10,694 bases of DNA from Clostridia bacterium. Its GTDB lineage: Bacteria; Bacillota_A; Clostridia; Oscillospirales; Butyricicoccaceae. The stretch is taken from the NCBI GenBank assembly GCA_017548175.1, contig JAFYMZ010000083.1, positions 1-10,694 on the forward strand. Direction: 5' to 3'. Below the pieces are notes generated by a model. It worked only from the letters and a program-made list of their open reading frames with translations, was not told where the DNA came from and searched no databases. A program made the translations under genes and the position numbers. Shown one piece after another: positions 4,105-10,694 of the stretch; position 1 is the first letter of the stretch, and each line of letters begins with the position of its first letter.

Positions 4105-4968
4105 ATGTGGTTGAGCGATAACTGGAAAGAATATGCCCTGTTGGATTGCGGCGGCGGTCAGCGGCTGGAGCGCTGGGGCAAGCAGATCCTGGTGCGCCCC
4201 GATCCGCAGGCCATTTGGCAGCCTGCCGGACATCCCCTGTGGACCAAGGCGGATGCAACCTATCACCGTTCCTCTTCCGGTGGCGGAAGCTGGAAAGTCA
4301 AGCATCTGCCCGAGTGCTGGAGCCTGCATTATGACGACCTGACCTTCCAGATCAAGCCCATGAGCTTCAAGCACACCGGCGTGTTCCCCGAGCAGGCCGC
4401 AAACTGGGACTTCATCCGTCAGCAGATCAAGAAGGCCGGCCGCCCCGTCAGCGTGCTGAACCTGTTTGCCTATACCGGCGGCGCAACGCTGGCTGCCGCA
4501 TCTGCCGGCGCCACCGTCTGTCACGTGGATGCCGCACGCGGTATGGTCACCTGGGCCAAGGAGAACGCCAAGTGCTCCGGTCTGGAGGACGCACCCATCC
4601 GCTACATCGTGGACGACTGCAAGAAGTTCATCAAGCGTGAGATCACCCGTGGACGCAAGTACGATGCCATCATTATGGACCCGCCCTCTTACGGCCGCGG
4701 TCCTTCCGGTGAGATCTGGCGCTTTGAAGAAAACATCGGCGAACTGGTGGATCTGGCTGTGCAGCTGCTGAGCGACGATCCCCTGTTCATCATCATCAAC
4801 TCTTACACCGCCGGCATTTCTCCCTCGGTGCCTGCCTATATTCTGGGCACCACCGCGGCAAAGCGCTTTGGCGGCACGGTGGAGGCACAGGAACTGGGTC
4901 TGCCCGTAGAATCTACCGGTCTGGCACTTCCCTGCGGACATACCAGTCGCTGGATCCGCAAAAAATAA
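4105..4968 (+). CDS. SAM-dependent methyltransferase, RlmI/COG1092-like, 287 aa
   Basis: This is a class I Rossmann-fold methyltransferase related to the RlmI/RlmK group of 23S rRNA methyltransferases (COG1092). Motif I is VLNLFAYTGGATLAAA (117-132), the acidic end of strand 2 is VDAA (141-144), and motif IV is MDPPSYGRGPSGE (191-203). The family's substrate-channel segment appears as FKHTGVFPEQAANW (88-101). It differs from E. coli RlmI in two visible ways. The N-terminal part is short, without an evident full PUA domain. The region where RlmI carries its catalytic Cys in a SCS motif instead reads INSYTAG (231-237). The target (rRNA base, other RNA or protein) cannot be assigned. ATG at 4105 is chosen because GAGGAG lies 8 bases before it; the open frame upstream runs through the leader. 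It is the first gene of the operon, 22 bases before ecfA1. Confidence 0.87.
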   Translation: MWLSDNWKEYALLDCGGGQRLERWGKQILVRPDPQAIWQPAGHPLWTKADATYHRSSSGGGSWKVKHLPECWSLHYDDLTFQIKPMSFKHTGVFPEQAANWDFIRQQIKKAGRPVSVLNLFAYTGGATLAAASAGATVCHVDAARGMVTWAKENAKCSGLEDAPIRYIVDDCKKFIKREITRGRKYDAIIMDPPSYGRGPSGEIWRFEENIGELVDLAVQLLSDDPLFIIINSYTAGISPSVPAYILGTTAAKRFGGTVEAQELGLPVESTGLALPCGHTSRWIRKK

Positions 4969-4990
4969 GTTCCGATAAAGGAGCGTATTT

Positions 4991-5836
4991 ATGGCTATCA
5001 TTGAAACGAAATATTTGACTTTTTCCTACAGCGAAGGCACCACTGCCGCGCTGGATGATGTCAACATCCAGATCCGGGAGGGCGAGTTTACCGCCATTCT
5101 GGGACACAACGGCAGCGGCAAGAGCACACTGGCCAAACACTTTAACGGCATCCTGCTGCCCTCCGGCGGCAAGGTGTGCGTGGGCGGTATGGACACGGCA
5201 GAGGACAGCCAGTTGTTCGACATCCGCAAGACGGCAGGCATGGTCTTCCAGAACCCCGACAACCAGATCGTTGCCACGGTGGTAGAGGAAGACGTGGCCT
5301 TTGCCTGCGAAAATCTGGGGCTGCCCTGGGCCGAGCTGCGCAAGCGCGTGGATGATGCACTGGCTGCCGTCGGCATGACGGAGTTTGCAAACCACGCACC
5401 CCATCTGCTGTCCGGCGGTCAGAAGCAGCGCATCGCCATTGCCGGTGTGCTGGCCATGCAGCCCCGGGTCATCATTATGGACGAACCCACCGCCATGCTG
5501 GATCCCGCCGGCCGTGCCGACGTCATGGAGACCATCAAGGAACTGAACCGGAAGAAGGGTATGACCGTGGTGCTCATCACCCATCATATGGACGAAGCCG
5601 CACAGGCCGACCGCGTCATCGTGATGAAGCAGGGTCAGGTGGCACTGGACGGCACGCCCAAAGAGGTTTTTGCCCAAGTGGACAAGATGCAGGAGCTGTC
5701 TTTGACCGTGCCGCAGACGGTAGAGATCCTGCACGGCTTGAATCAGGGCGGCGAGACGCTGGCACTGGACAAGCTGACGGTGGAAGAATGCGCCGACGAA
5801 CTGATGCGCTATCTGGGAGGTGGCAAGGATGCATAA
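4991..5836 (+). CDS. ecfA1: EcfA1: ECF transporter ATPase subunit, 281 aa
   Basis: This is one of the two ATPases that power energy-coupling factor (ECF) importers for vitamins and other micronutrients; it acts at the inner face of the membrane as a heterodimer with EcfA2. All ABC elements are present: Walker A GHNGSGKST (38-46), Q-loop Gln87 in MVFQNPDNQ, signature LSGGQ (140-144), Walker B VIIMDEP (160-166) with Glu165, and switch His198. The Q-loop FQNPDNQIVA is typical of EcfA1/CbiO proteins. About 60 residues after the switch histidine form the ECF-type C-terminal region. AAAGGAG precedes the ATG by 7 bases. Order and overlaps with ecfA2, ecfT and truA match the Firmicutes general-module locus. 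No substrate-binding S component is in the window, so it is presumably shared among several S proteins encoded elsewhere. Confidence 0.95.
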   Translation: MAIIETKYLTFSYSEGTTAALDDVNIQIREGEFTAILGHNGSGKSTLAKHFNGILLPSGGKVCVGGMDTAEDSQLFDIRKTAGMVFQNPDNQIVATVVEEDVAFACENLGLPWAELRKRVDDALAAVGMTEFANHAPHLLSGGQKQRIAIAGVLAMQPRVIIMDEPTAMLDPAGRADVMETIKELNRKKGMTVVLITHHMDEAAQADRVIVMKQGQVALDGTPKEVFAQVDKMQELSLTVPQTVEILHGLNQGGETLALDKLTVEECADELMRYLGGGKDA

Positions 5837-6695
5837 CGAAGTACTCCGCATCGAAAATCTGACCCACGTATACAGCGCCGGCACGCCCTTTGAGCGAATT
5901 GCCGTAGACAACGTGAGCCTGTCCGCCAATCACGGCGAGTTCATCGGCCTCATCGGCCACACCGGCAGCGGCAAGAGCACGCTGATCCAGCATTTCAACG
6001 GCCTGCTGAAGCCCACCTCCGGCCGCGTGCTCATCAACGGCGAGGACATCTTCCAGAGCAAGGAAATGACCCGCGGTGCGCGGTTTGCCGTTGGTCTGGT
6101 GTTCCAGTACCCCGAATATCAGTTGTTTGAAGAAACCGTTTACAAAGATATCGCCTTCGGCCCCAAGAATATGGGTCTGGACGAGAAGGAGATCGACCGC
6201 CGCGTCCGTGACGCCGCCGCCATCGTCGGTCTGGCACCCGAAACGCTGGAAAAGTCGCCCTTTGAACTGTCCGGCGGTCAGAAGCGCCGCGTGGCGCTGG
6301 CCGGTGTCTTTGCCATGGAACCGCAGGTTCTGGTGCTGGATGAGCCCATGGCCGGTCTGGACCCCGCAGGCCGCGAGGACGTCTTTGCCTTTATCAAAGA
6401 ATACCAAAAGAAGCACGGCATCACCGTCATCTTCGTCACCCACAGTATGGAAGATGCCGCCAAGATGGCCGACCGCATCATTGTGATGGAGCGCGGTAAG
6501 ATCCTGCTGCAGGGCACGCCCGAAGAGATCTTCTGCCACGCCGATGAACTGGTGCAGGCCGGTCTGAATATTCCGCAGGTCACCCAGGTGTTCAGCGAGC
6601 TGCGCCGTCGCGGCGTGGACATCCCGGGCAACGTGTACACCGTTGAGCAGGCACTGGACGTGCTGCGTCGGAGAAAGGAGCAGGGACATGCTTAA
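5829..6695 (+). CDS. ecfA2: EcfA2: ECF transporter ATPase subunit, 288 aa
   Basis: This is the second ATPase of the ECF module, the partner of EcfA1. Visible elements are Walker A GHTGSGKST (43-51), Q-loop Gln93 in LVFQYPEYQLFEETV (the FQYPEYQLF form is typical of EcfA2), signature LSGGQ (147-151), Walker B VLVLDEP (167-173) with Glu172, and switch His205 in VTHSMEDA. ATG at 5829 is chosen because GGGAGG lies 8 bases upstream. A GTG at 5820 is in frame but overlaps that same site. The gene overlaps ecfA1 by 8 bases (ATGCATAA), so its translation is probably coupled, which suits a 1:1 heterodimer. Nothing is missing compared with working ATPases. Confidence 0.95.
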   Translation: MHNEVLRIENLTHVYSAGTPFERIAVDNVSLSANHGEFIGLIGHTGSGKSTLIQHFNGLLKPTSGRVLINGEDIFQSKEMTRGARFAVGLVFQYPEYQLFEETVYKDIAFGPKNMGLDEKEIDRRVRDAAAIVGLAPETLEKSPFELSGGQKRRVALAGVFAMEPQVLVLDEPMAGLDPAGREDVFAFIKEYQKKHGITVIFVTHSMEDAAKMADRIIVMERGKILLQGTPEEIFCHADELVQAGLNIPQVTQVFSELRRRGVDIPGNVYTVEQALDVLRRRKEQGHA

Positions 6696-7494
6696 AGATA
6701 TTACCCTGGGCCAGTATTTCCCCGGCACCAGCGTCATCCATCGACTGGACCCCCGTACCAAGCTGCTGGCGCTGATTTTGTACATCGTGTCGCTGTTCCT
6801 GTCCAGCAATGTACTGTCCTATGCCCTGTGCATTGCCTTTTTGCTGACGGTACTGTTTCTGTCCCGCATCCAGCCCAAGCTGGTGCTGAAGAGCCTGAAG
6901 CCGGTGGTCTTTATCGTCATTCTGACCGCAGTGCTGAATATGCTGTACACCCCCGGCGATGTGCTGTGGAGCCTTGCCTTTATCAAGATCACCAAACAGG
7001 GCATCCGTACCGCCATCTATATGGCGCTGCGCATCACCCTGCTCATCACCTCGGCTACGATGCTGACCTACACCACCTCCCCCATCAGCCTCACCGATGC
7101 CATCGAGAATCTGCTGAGCCCCCTGAAAAAGGTGAAGGTGCCCGTGCACGAGTTTGCCATGATGATGACCATCGCCCTGCGCTTTATCCCCACCCTCATC
7201 GAAGAAACCGGCAAGATCATGTCTGCCCAGAAGGCACGCGGTGCCGACTTTGAAAGCGGCAGCCTGTTCGCCCGCGCCAAGGCGCTGGTGCCCGTGCTGG
7301 TGCCCCTGTTTATCTCCGCCTTCCGCCGCGCCGATGAACTGGCCGTGGCCATGGAGTGCCGCCTGTATCACGGCGGTCAGGGCCGTACCCGTCTGCATCA
7401 GCTGAAGTACACCAAGCTGGATCTGGTGGGCGGCCTGCTGGTGATTCTGGTTTGCGCCGGCATCATCGTGCTGGGTCGGGTGGCACTGGTATGA
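6688..7494 (+). CDS. ecfT: EcfT: ECF transporter transmembrane coupling subunit, 268 aa
   Basis: EcfT is the membrane scaffold that joins the two EcfA ATPases to exchangeable S components. The start has the family form GQYFPGTSVIHRLDPRTKLL (8-27). Hydrophobic membrane segments follow at roughly 26-58, 72-86, 106-127 and, at the C-terminus, 245-264. The long cytoplasmic coupling helices carry the two family signatures: Ala-Arg-Gly at 183-185 (AQKARGADFE) and a second Arg at 225 in AMECRLYHGG. The second site reads Cys-Arg-Leu rather than the commonest Ala-Arg-Gly. The length is normal (about 265). ATG at 6688 is chosen for AAAGGAG 7 bases upstream and an 8-base overlap with ecfA2 (ATGCTTAA). 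The upstream in-frame ATG at 6643 would add 15 residues inside ecfA2 that do not resemble EcfT. Confidence 0.95.
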   Translation: MLKDITLGQYFPGTSVIHRLDPRTKLLALILYIVSLFLSSNVLSYALCIAFLLTVLFLSRIQPKLVLKSLKPVVFIVILTAVLNMLYTPGDVLWSLAFIKITKQGIRTAIYMALRITLLITSATMLTYTTSPISLTDAIENLLSPLKKVKVPVHEFAMMMTIALRFIPTLIEETGKIMSAQKARGADFESGSLFARAKALVPVLVPLFISAFRRADELAVAMECRLYHGGQGRTRLHQLKYTKLDLVGGLLVILVCAGIIVLGRVALV

Positions 7495-8267
7495 AGATCG
7501 CGTTAGTCCTGTCTTATTACGGTGCCGCCTATCACGGCTGGCAGCGGCAGAATAACGGCATGACCATTCAGGAACTGGTGGAGACCGCGGTGGAAAAGAC
7601 CTGCGGCAAGCCCACCTATGTTTCCGGCTGCGGCCGCACCGATGCCGGTGTGCATGCCAAGTATTATGTGGCCTCCATGGAACTGGACACCTCCATTCCC
7701 ATGGAGCGCCTGCCCGCGGCGCTGAACGCACGCTTGCCCTACGACGTGGTGATCCACAAGGCCGTGCAGGTGCCCGATGATTTTGACGCACGCTTCTCCT
7801 GCGTATGCAAGGAGTACACCTATGTGATCCACAACGCCCGGACCCGGGACCCCTTTACCGTGGATCGCGCCTATTTTTACTCACGCCCGCTGGATGCCGA
7901 TGCCATGCATCGCGCCGCCCAGCATTTTGTGGGCAAGCAGGATTTTGCCGCCGTGAAGAACGAAGGCACCCCTGTCAAAAGTACTGTCCGCACCATTTAC
8001 TACTGTAATGTCGAGCGCCGCGGCGACCGGATCTACATCCGCGTCTGCGCCGACGGCTTCCTGTACAATATGGTGCGCTCCATCGCAGGCACGCTGATGT
8101 ACTGCGGTGTGGGCAAGATCGCCCCCGAGGCGATTCCTGCCATTTTGGCCAGCGGTGATCGGGAACAGGCCGGTCCTACTGCGCCCGCCTGCGGACTGTA
8201 TATGTCCGCACTGACTTATAATATGGAGGCTTTGGATGGCCGCGCAAATGAAACCTACGACGAATAA
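7491..8267 (+). CDS. truA: TruA: tRNA pseudouridine(38-40) synthase, 258 aa
   Basis: TruA converts uridines 38, 39 and 40 in the anticodon arm of tRNAs to pseudouridine in the cytosol. The N-terminal LSYYGAAYHGWQRQ (7-20) and the catalytic-loop motif GRTDAGVHA (48-56) with nucleophile Asp51 are clear. The family Tyr in CKEYTY (106-111), DGFLYNMVRSIAGTL (188-202) and the C-terminal AGPTAPACGLYM (227-238) are also clear. The length is usual for bacterial TruA. The ATG shares bases with the ecfT stop (ATGA), and only a weak GGTGG site precedes it, so translation is likely coupled to ecfT. The same frame is open upstream to 7356, but that part is an out-of-frame reading of ecfT. In many Firmicutes truA is followed by rplM-rpsI; here it is followed by a DUF5711-like gene instead. 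Confidence 0.96.
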   Translation: MKIALVLSYYGAAYHGWQRQNNGMTIQELVETAVEKTCGKPTYVSGCGRTDAGVHAKYYVASMELDTSIPMERLPAALNARLPYDVVIHKAVQVPDDFDARFSCVCKEYTYVIHNARTRDPFTVDRAYFYSRPLDADAMHRAAQHFVGKQDFAAVKNEGTPVKSTVRTIYYCNVERRGDRIYIRVCADGFLYNMVRSIAGTLMYCGVGKIAPEAIPAILASGDREQAGPTAPACGLYMSALTYNMEALDGRANETYDE

Positions 8268-9438
8268 AGCATCGGTCAAAAACAACATCGCCAAGTTCCG
8301 TCAGGACCGCCGCCTGCTGGTGGTAGGTCTGTTTCAGGGACTGGGCCTTTTGCTGATGCTTGCCGTTCTGGTTTTCTCCATCGTTGCCTATCAGGACTAT
8401 CTGTCCCCTGCCTCTCTGCAGCAGGGCTTGCGCTATCTGGGTGCCACGGCATCCCAAGGCAGCACCGTCCTGCTGGACATCAGTCCCGATGAGGACGCGG
8501 TCTATCTGCCCATGGGTATGGGAATGGTGTCCGCCTCCCGGGACGGCTACCGCTACCACAGTATGGTAGAGGACAACCGCTTTTACACCGGCAGCAGTTT
8601 TGGCAGTCCTGCCATCACCGCAGGCAATCGTCTGGCGCTGATTTATGGCCGCGGCGGTGACACCCTGACGGTACACACCAGTTACGGACAGGTTTGGAGC
8701 AAAACGCTGGACTCCACCATCCTGTCGGCTTCTATGAACGCCAAAGGCGCCTTTGCGCTGGTGACCAACGAGACCGGCTATCGCTGCGCCGTTTCCGTGT
8801 ACAACAACAAACAAACGCTGCTGTGCAAATGGCTGTCCAGCCAGTATTATATCCTGTCCGCATCGGTGAATCACACCGCCAACGCCTTTGCCGCCCTGTG
8901 CTTCAGCGCAGAGAATGCCGGCGTGAAAACGCAGGTCTTGCTCTTCCGCGTGGGCGAGGAGCAGGCATTCGCCACGGTGGACCTGCAGGGTCGCAGCGTT
9001 TGCTCGATGAAGTATGATAATTCCGGGAATTTGTTCATACTATGTGAAGACAGCCTGTTGGCCGTTGACGGCAACGGCAGCATCGTGCTGGACCGCCGTT
9101 TTTCCGGCGAACTGACCGGCTTTTACCATCGTGAGGGGCAAGAGCCTCTGCTGGTCTTTACCCGCGCCGCCACCGACGGAGAGATGGTGCAGCTGCTGAT
9201 GCTGGATGCCGCCGGCAACGCCCTGTGCGACCGGGAATTTTCCGGCACTTACGTGGATGCCACCACCGACGGCGAAGTCTTTCATCTGCTGCTGGGCGAC
9301 AAGTTGATCTCCTTCTTTGCCGACGGCACGCAGGAGACCGGCGTGGCCTGCAGCGGTGCCGTTGCGGTTTTAGCCGGCAGCAACCACTGCCCCATTCTGC
9401 TGTACAGCGACCGGGCAGAAAAGCTGCAGCTGCATTGA
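8236..9438 (+). CDS. Single-TM DUF5711-like protein with repeat-rich external domain, 400 aa
   Basis: The protein has a short basic cytoplasmic tail (1-26, ending FRQDRR), one strongly hydrophobic segment (about 27-51) and a 350-residue remainder that should lie outside the membrane. The outer part is built of recurring beta-type units: a turn such as YGQVW, GNGSIVLD or AAGNALCD, followed by a hydrophobic strand and a polar turn, as in anchored beta-propellers. I believe it belongs to DUF5711, a Clostridia family of unknown function, judged from architecture and context rather than from a diagnostic motif. GGAGG (8225-8229) stands 6 bases before ATG 8236. This makes the gene begin 32 bases inside truA, with its ribosome site also in truA. 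ATG 8248 is a less well-spaced alternative. A structural or surface-sensing role would fit the next gene, CvpA-like, also being a membrane protein, but no enzymatic residues are evident. Confidence 0.8.
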   Translation: MAAQMKPTTNKASVKNNIAKFRQDRRLLVVGLFQGLGLLLMLAVLVFSIVAYQDYLSPASLQQGLRYLGATASQGSTVLLDISPDEDAVYLPMGMGMVSASRDGYRYHSMVEDNRFYTGSSFGSPAITAGNRLALIYGRGGDTLTVHTSYGQVWSKTLDSTILSASMNAKGAFALVTNETGYRCAVSVYNNKQTLLCKWLSSQYYILSASVNHTANAFAALCFSAENAGVKTQVLLFRVGEEQAFATVDLQGRSVCSMKYDNSGNLFILCEDSLLAVDGNGSIVLDRRFSGELTGFYHREGQEPLLVFTRAATDGEMVQLLMLDAAGNALCDREFSGTYVDATTDGEVFHLLLGDKLISFFADGTQETGVACSGAVAVLAGSNHCPILLYSDRAEKLQLH

Positions 9439-9471
9439 TCAGAGCACACGACCCCCAAGGAGGGCTTTTTT

Positions 9472-10116
9472 ATGACGTTTTTTTCTACGCCCCTGCTGTA
9501 TGACGCAGCATTTGTACTGATTTTACTGGTCAGTATCACGCTGGCCGCCAAGTGCGGCGCTTTCAAGGCCATTTCCGGCATTGCCGGCACGGTGGCCGGT
9601 CTGGTGGGCGGCTTGATGTTTCAGGACCGCATCGCCGTACACGTGGAAAGTTTCCTGACCCCGATGGTGGAGCGCACCATCCTCAGCTGGGACTTCTCTC
9701 AGTTTATGGAACTGAGCAGCGAGACCATTGCCAAGTTGTCCCAGACGATGGCCGATGTTATTTCCGCCTGGCAGCAAAGCAGCGGCGGTCAGATCCCGCA
9801 GGAGCTGGTCACCGGCATCACCGGCGAGATCGTGCCCCGAATGGCGGCTATTTTGAGTTTTCTGTTGTTGTTCTTTGCCATCAAGATCGTGGTGGTCTTG
9901 GTGCTGCGGTTGTTTAACGACAGCATTCCCGGCTTCCGCACCCTGAGCCGCGGCTTGGGTGCCGTACTGGGCGCCGTCAGCGGCCTGCTGCTGGCGCTGG
10001 TTCTGTGCTGGGCCGTGCTGCACTATGCCCCTGCCGACGAAGCCGCCGGACTGATCAATCAGCAGTCCCTGCGCGAAAGCCATATCGGCAGTGTGCTGTG
10101 CACCTTTTTCGATTGA
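9472..10116 (+). CDS. CvpA family membrane protein, 214 aa
   Basis: Four hydrophobic segments (about 8-25, 30-49, 121-147 and 161-184) with a polar 60-70 residue loop between the second and third match the CvpA (colicin V production) family. The C-terminal TLSRGLGAVLGAVSGLLLALVLCW (157-180) is typical of the family. CvpA was named from an E. coli host factor needed for colicin V release; in Firmicutes its role is poorly defined and linked to envelope functions. The central loop is longer than in minimal CvpA proteins and contains amphipathic helices (about 60-100). The start is secure: AAGGAGG lies before a T-run of six and the ATG at 9472. The gap to the previous gene is 33 bases, without a convincing terminator. 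It lies between two genes with the same leader motif (CCCCAAGGAGG also precedes the next gene). Confidence 0.88.
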   Translation: MTFFSTPLLYDAAFVLILLVSITLAAKCGAFKAISGIAGTVAGLVGGLMFQDRIAVHVESFLTPMVERTILSWDFSQFMELSSETIAKLSQTMADVISAWQQSSGGQIPQELVTGITGEIVPRMAAILSFLLLFFAIKIVVVLVLRLFNDSIPGFRTLSRGLGAVLGAVSGLLLALVLCWAVLHYAPADEAAGLINQQSLRESHIGSVLCTFFD

Positions 10117-10136
10117 CCCCAAGGAGGTAACCCCTG

Positions 10137-10622
10137 ATGAATATGCCTATTTGCGGCCGCTGCAAGAAAAATGTCGCGGTGGTTTTCGTCACCCGAATGG
10201 AGGGTGACAAGACCCAGAACGAGGGTCTGTGCCTGAAGTGCGCCAAAGAACTGGGCATTCAGCCTGTGACCCAGATGCTGCAGCAGTTCGGTGTCACCGA
10301 CGAAGATCTGGACACCGTATCGGAAGAACTGATGAACGGCGGTGGCGAAATGCTGCAGAATATGATGCAGCAGATGACCGGCCAGATGCCGGAACTGCCC
10401 CAGAATGACGAGTCCGACAGCGCCGATGAGGAGGAAGAAGCCGCCTCCCGCGCGCCTTCCCTCAACCTGTTCCAAATCTTCCGCAACCAGAAGGACAAAG
10501 AGCAGGAGTCCGATGCTTCTGCCGACAAGCAGAGCAAGAAATCCGGCAAAAAAGAACCCAACAAGAAGAAATTCCTCTCCAGTTATGCCCAAAACCTGAC
10601 CCAACAGGCCAAGGACGGCTAG
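10137..10622 (+). CDS. Zinc-binding N-terminal part of a ClpE/ClpC-type ATPase, ended by TAG (161 aa)
   Basis: The ORF starts at ATG 10137, 9 bases after AAGGAGG. It encodes a treble-clef-like zinc site with Cys6, Cys9, Cys32 and Cys35 (CGRC, 22 residues, CLKC), as in ClpE and in Clostridia Clp ATPases starting with a C4 zinc domain. A helical segment follows (CAKELGIQPVTQMLQQFGV, 35-53), then a Met/Gln-rich stretch, an acidic linker (DESDSADEEEEA) and a Lys/Ser-rich linker (about 122-145). The last residues, FLSSYAQNLTQQAKDG (146-161), match the segment that precedes the first AAA+ domain of ClpC/ClpE (NLTEQARKGKLDPVIGRD in relatives). TAG at 10620-10622 then interrupts the frame. McsA was considered but has more CxxC pairs and a UVR domain, neither of which is seen. 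The zinc domain would recognise substrates or adaptors for ClpP-dependent proteolysis. Confidence 0.8.
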   Translation: MNMPICGRCKKNVAVVFVTRMEGDKTQNEGLCLKCAKELGIQPVTQMLQQFGVTDEDLDTVSEELMNGGGEMLQNMMQQMTGQMPELPQNDESDSADEEEEAASRAPSLNLFQIFRNQKDKEQESDASADKQSKKSGKKEPNKKKFLSSYAQNLTQQAKDG

Positions 10623-10694
10623 TTGGACCGCGTGGTGGGCCGCGACAGCGAGACGCTGCGCGTGATTCAGATCCTCAACCGCCGTCAGAAGAAC
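10623..10694 (+). CDS. Start of ClpC/ClpE-type AAA+ module, in frame after the TAG (partial)
   Basis: Immediately after the TAG and in the same frame, 24 codons read LDRVVGRDSETLRVIQILNRRQKN. This is the entry to the first AAA+ domain of Hsp100/Clp ATPases: V(V/I)GRD, then R-VIQIL-RR-KN just before the Walker A of the D1 domain. The window ends before the Walker A motif. If this is a separate cistron, TTG at 10623 could serve as its start, because AAGGA (10611-10615) lies exactly 7 bases upstream. Otherwise it is the continuation of the preceding ORF beyond a nonsense, read-through or mis-sequenced codon. The AAA+ identity is secure from the motif. How it is translated is open. Confidence 0.75.
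   Translation, partial: MDRVVGRDSETLRVIQILNRRQKN

Follow-up and report, generated by a model that had tools for sequence, protein, structure and literature searches.

An in-frame TAG in a ClpE-type Clp ATPase gene of a Clostridia bacterium: a probable recent nonsense allele, or an artefact, and not a new split system

The window, which is the whole stretch of 10,694 nucleotides that was analyzed, carries on its + strand genes for a methyltransferase, EcfA1, EcfA2, EcfT, TruA, a DUF5711 protein, and a CvpA-like protein, followed by a 161-codon ORF. The DUF5711 and Colicin_V/CvpA proteins were assigned by Pfam, and the methyltransferase, EcfA1, EcfA2, EcfT, and TruA were named by their sequence and context. 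The gene order in relatives L001, L002, and L112-L117 is the same as far as each locus extends, so that the arrangement methyltransferase-ecfA1-ecfA2-ecfT-truA-DUF5711-cvpA-clpE (window 4105-10622) is kept up to the locus ends. Most of the relatives are MAGs of the Oscillospirales type that come from animal guts, and the source bacterium is therefore probably gut-dwelling. The features in and around the 161-codon ORF are given below with their basis in brackets (numbers beginning with P denote related proteins that are described further on).

10121-10127, + strand: AAGGAGG ribosome-binding site, 9 bases 5' of the ATG at 10137 (sequence).
10137-10622, + strand: 161-codon ORF for a ClpE-type N-terminal zinc domain and a low-complexity linker, ended by TAG (translation; 98-99% identity to P0001, P0002, and P0241).
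10152-10241, + strand: CX2C-X22-CX2C zinc-ligand motif, Cys 6, 9, 32, and 35 (translation; all four Cys conserved without exception in an alignment of 39 proteins).
10560-10613, + strand: coding sequence for the helical segment that opens the D1 AAA+ module, 5' of the stop (matches to solved D1 chains start inside it; AlphaFold2 model of P0241).
10605-10607, + strand: CAG for Gln157, common to the window and P0001; Lys in P0241, P0002, and P0003 (protein alignment).
10611-10615, + strand: AAGGA, Shine-Dalgarno (SD)-like, within coding Lys-Asp codons, 7 nt 5' of TTG 10623 (sequence).
10620-10622, + strand: in-frame TAG at a codon where relatives mostly have Lys (sequence; junctions of the relatives).
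10623-10694, + strand: 24 more D1 codons in the same frame, the window end being reached before Walker A (same residues after the junction in P0241).

The first-pass annotation had described an in-frame TAG at 10620-10622 that ends a zinc-domain ORF in a frame open beyond it, and an AAGGA (10611-10615) 7 nt ahead of TTG 10623; both were confirmed in the sequence. Past the TAG, the reading frame is LDRVVGRDSETLRVIQILNRRQKN, 24 codons up to 10694 (72 bases from the stop to the window end). All 24 residues are identical to those of P0241, and thus no decay is visible.

The identity of the gene was established from the ORF and its complete relatives. The published hallmarks of ClpE are an N-terminal zinc-binding domain, two AAA+ modules with Walker A/B motifs, and an [I/M/L/V]GF tripeptide for ClpP (PMC8635124). 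The window ORF has the predicted zinc domain, with CX2C-X22-CX2C at Cys 6/9/32/35; no Pfam model matched it above cut-off (the best, DUF7685, with an E value of 0.041, was below cut-off), and no NCBIfam model hit it at E <= 0.01. The complete relatives L112-L117 encode at this place a protein of 768-785 aa with an N-terminal CX2C-X22-CX2C, a linker, and two AAA+ modules. AAA, AAA_2, and ClpB_D2-small were matched by Pfam in L112 and L115, and for neither of these two did any of the 25 listed NCBIfam models exceed its cut-off. The VGF tripeptide is present in the second module of P0241 and L112-L117, a region that lies beyond the window end, and the zinc motif together with this tripeptide fits the published description of ClpE. 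In a search of solved structures, P0241 was aligned to ClpC across both AAA+ modules; the top solved relatives were ClpC, and ClpE (29hb) was also high in the list. Judged from these sequence features, the gene is that of a ClpE-type class I Clp ATPase, which follows truA, DUF5711, and cvpA in the family.

The stop had been placed exactly at the linker/AAA+ junction in the first-pass annotation, a position that did not hold, as solved chains, conservation, and the predicted structure put the beginning of D1 about 15-20 residues upstream of the TAG. The matches to the D1-only chains 1jbk, 6emw_E, and 2p65 start at P0241 residue 146, which corresponds to chain residue 2-5, and the stop position maps to P0241 residue 161, 15 past this start. 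Residues K144, L146, Y149, L153, A157, L162, and D163 are invariant among 39 proteins. The AlphaFold2 model of P0241 (39 sequences; mean pLDDT 72, pTM 0.52) has pLDDT <50 at residues 68-140 and is ordered from 141, with a helix-strand-helix at 141-158. Taken together, the starts of the D1-chain matches, the conservation, and the model indicate that the stop falls past the first helical segment of D1.

Next, the junction was read in 100 relative loci with a match, 4 of which repeat others. The codon is passed without a stop in 97 of the 100, a comparison with related genomes that the first reading had proposed. In the 81 loci whose junction fits the motif (4 fetched twice), the residue is Lys in 61, Gln in 8, Arg in 5, Gly in 5, Ala in 1, and Thr in 1; of the remaining 19, 16 visibly continue past the codon, L007 and L028 do not reach the junction, and L054 has a frameshift upstream of it. 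Of 118 proteins scanned, 117 had a readable junction (113 Lys and 4 Gly), and the 118th, P0001, ends there. The expectation of a sense codon, mostly Lys, in place of the TAG is thus borne out by loci (61/81) and proteins (113/117) alike. A search of the 87 family genomes placed the gene in 83 of them, at 84 places, and at 68 of these the frame is open for 600 aa or more; 8 of the 16 places with a shorter frame were fetched, and all 8 run to the end of their own contig. The clpE-type gene of the MAG at L054 (12863-15149) is frameshifted in the linker, and its AAA+ part is open in another frame.

A nearly identical full-length protein is P0241 (779 aa; a cluster of 5 sequences; an 11,027-base ENA contig), which shows 98% identity over the 161 residues. 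Relative to the window ORF, it is one residue shorter with one change in the acidic run, and it has Lys at Gln157. By this identity, P0241 appears to be an intact copy from the same species. A further 35 sister proteins, P0242-P0276 (777-781 aa; 72-87% identity), all have Lys at the stop position; P0241-P0276 come from the best 120 of 1612 matches. P0241 itself has Pro464 and Ala494, where all 35 sisters have Thr464 and Asp or Glu494, which may reflect entry errors or relaxed constraint.

The species of the window was not found in the genome collections searched, including GTDB r220, the 87 family genomes, and 394 genomes of the order. A scan of GTDB r220 with the 161-aa ORF gave 61 stretches, with no relative among them by tblastn, viral contigs gave 7 stretches with no relative, and no near match to 9000-10694 was found in plasmids. 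The DNA search of the 394 genomes gave 2 matches, to the distant G010 and G085, which had been found before, and a profile search with alignment A1 yielded none of the window's species among the best 120 of 8000 scored candidates.

The same early end was found a second time. P0001 (161 aa; a 1102-base ENA contig; a cluster of 2) has the same last residue and Gln157 as the window ORF, and has Ile77 in place of Met77; since Gln157 is common to both, it goes with the early end. That this haplotype was found twice favors a real allele over a one-off error. P0001 may simply end with its own 1102-base contig, and its sample may be the same as that of the window. On this evidence, the window probably carries a recent nonsense allele of the ClpE-type gene, most likely a loss of function. 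Translation from ATG 10137 would then give a fragment of zinc finger and disordered linker after 161 codons; because this fragment has no motor, the AAA+ part being not or hardly made, loss of function would be the most likely outcome. Such a loss may be tolerated owing to other class I Clp ATPases: one or more that have Clp_N repeats were found in addition in all 6 relatives searched, and two in 5 of them. A clpE-deficient strain of S. mutans has been made and studied (PMC8635124). Among the paper titles found on the recoding of stop codons in gut Firmicutes and on nonsense mutations within hosts, none was about this gene.

The TAG and the nearby Gln157 could instead be errors of the consensus, made close to the end of a contig where the sequence is conserved and the assembly graph branches, an explanation that we regard as unlikely but as a serious competitor. 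The stop lies only 72 bases from the window end, and within 18 bases the window departs from P0241 at two of its Lys codons. Nine genomes were searched in the G001 genus, and in 6 of the 8 that gave a match the contig breaks off no more than about 290 codons from the gene start; the loci whose contigs end there, as the window does, are L081, L083, L085, L088, L089, and L090, and the assemblies probably break on shared AAA+ sequence. Odd tails just past the junction were seen in at least 5 of 14 short relatives looked at. The abrupt odd tails of P0002, P0003, P0004, P0006, and P0027 are likely contig-end artefacts; of these, P0002 (212 aa; 99% identity) has Lys at both positions, reads through, and departs from its relatives after GEPGVGK. 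A GGC motif is found close to each of the two differing codons, but 14% of the bases of the region also lie near one, which makes this a weak, post hoc lead. Against consensus errors stands P0001, which agrees with the window in Gln157 and in its end but differs at residue 77, so that the same error would need to arise twice or stem from the same reads. Among the options listed in the first-pass annotation, the nonsense mutation is accordingly the best fit, given the intact P0241 and the shared haplotype of P0001, and a base-call error keeps a lesser place beside it.

The option of a true split, in which ribosomes stop at the TAG and restart at TTG 10623 to give a zinc-domain protein and a motor lacking the N domain, somewhat like that from the internal start of E. 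coli ClpB, is very unlikely. The abutting TAG-TTG suits re-initiation, and of the 171 NTG codons inside the eight + strand window genes just 3 have an SD-like 5-mer (three types) 4-10 nt ahead of them, so that the arrangement is uncommon by chance. Internal initiation does yield an N-domain-less ClpB in E. coli (PMC11268196). On the other hand, a split gene would keep the SD and start at the break, and none of 92 junctions of relatives combines an SD-like 5-mer (five types, a slightly wider set) with NTG (the 5-mer is present in 25 and NTG in 3). In addition, AAGGA belongs to coding Lys-Asp codons, and the eight + strand genes all begin with ATG, at the starts chosen in the analysis. TTG 10623 lies past the first D1 helix; this helix is part of the solved D1 chains and would be missing from the re-initiation product. 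The intact, nearly identical P0241 also exists. A true split, previously considered credible, is thus disfavored, and a split conserved across the clade was rejected, the junctions of the relatives being uninterrupted and devoid of a paired SD and NTG. We give hardly any weight to a naturally segregating split, in which a TAG haplotype would produce a free zinc-domain protein and a motor without N-domain initiated at TTG 10623, uncoupling recognition from unfolding in part of the population. A split-protein system would be unusual if true, but the evidence points away from it.

Restoration of the full-length protein by amber read-through, a suppressor tRNA, pyrrolysine, or TAG reassignment is equally improbable. 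The 11 other window ORFs that were taken as genes have TAA (6) or TGA (5) as their stop and never TAG; however, TAG accounts for 46 of 457 readable ortholog stops in the relatives (TGA 249, TAA 162; 15 more genes ran off the locus), at which rate a set of 11 genes would have no TAG stop about 3 times in 10, and its absence here is unremarkable. The absence of in-frame TAG from the eight + strand genes is circular, as these are ORFs, and comparison with relatives is the better test; the other window genes compared are nearly full length and have no need for TAG as a sense codon. UAG is the pyrrolysine codon, and the family genome G058 has PylS, but this is the only one of the 87 family genomes with PylS above cut-off, and G001-G011 and G084-G087, which include the nearest ones, have none. 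Weak matches below cut-off, found in 62 of the 87 family genomes and also in 13 of 14 control genomes, are not evidence. No tRNA was found in a scan of the window. Read-through, which had been proposed earlier, therefore gains no support, and TAG reassignment and pyrrolysine were rejected, since TAG is a used stop in relatives, the window genes compared are nearly full length, and PylS is above cut-off in 1 of the 87 family genomes. The G058 locus (L118; G058:C37:4926-5627) matches the C-terminal domain of pyrrolysyl-tRNA synthetase far above the cut-off.

In summary, what the window carries appears to be a recent nonsense allele of a known ClpE-type gene, or an artefact, rather than a novel split system. 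A real allele would show that an uncultured species can lose a ClpE-type unfoldase in part of its members, and would provide a natural truncation for comparison with its intact siblings.

Compared with known systems, the best-scoring solved relatives over the AAA+ part are the ClpC proteins of B. subtilis and S. aureus. The ClpC N domain is built of Clp_N repeats, whereas in L112 and L115 the zinc motif is present and Clp_N is absent from the Pfam families listed, 25 of 36 and 25 of 34, respectively. ClpE, a class I Hsp100/Clp ATPase of Gram-positive bacteria, shares the CX2C-X22-CX2C domain and, in the intact relatives, the two AAA+ modules and VGF; residues 122-778 of P0241 match its solved chain 29hb. 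In contrast to ClpE, the window copy ends after 161 codons, and the linker is long and, by the model, probably disordered (about 68-140). A role as an oxidative-stress sensor has been proposed for the ClpE N domain (PMC5506225). E. coli ClpB resembles the proposed split in that a second start, which has an SD of its own, yields a natural motor lacking the N domain (PMC11268196). That isoform is made from an intact gene beside the full-length protein, whereas the window allele would give no full-length protein and has its candidate start within D1.
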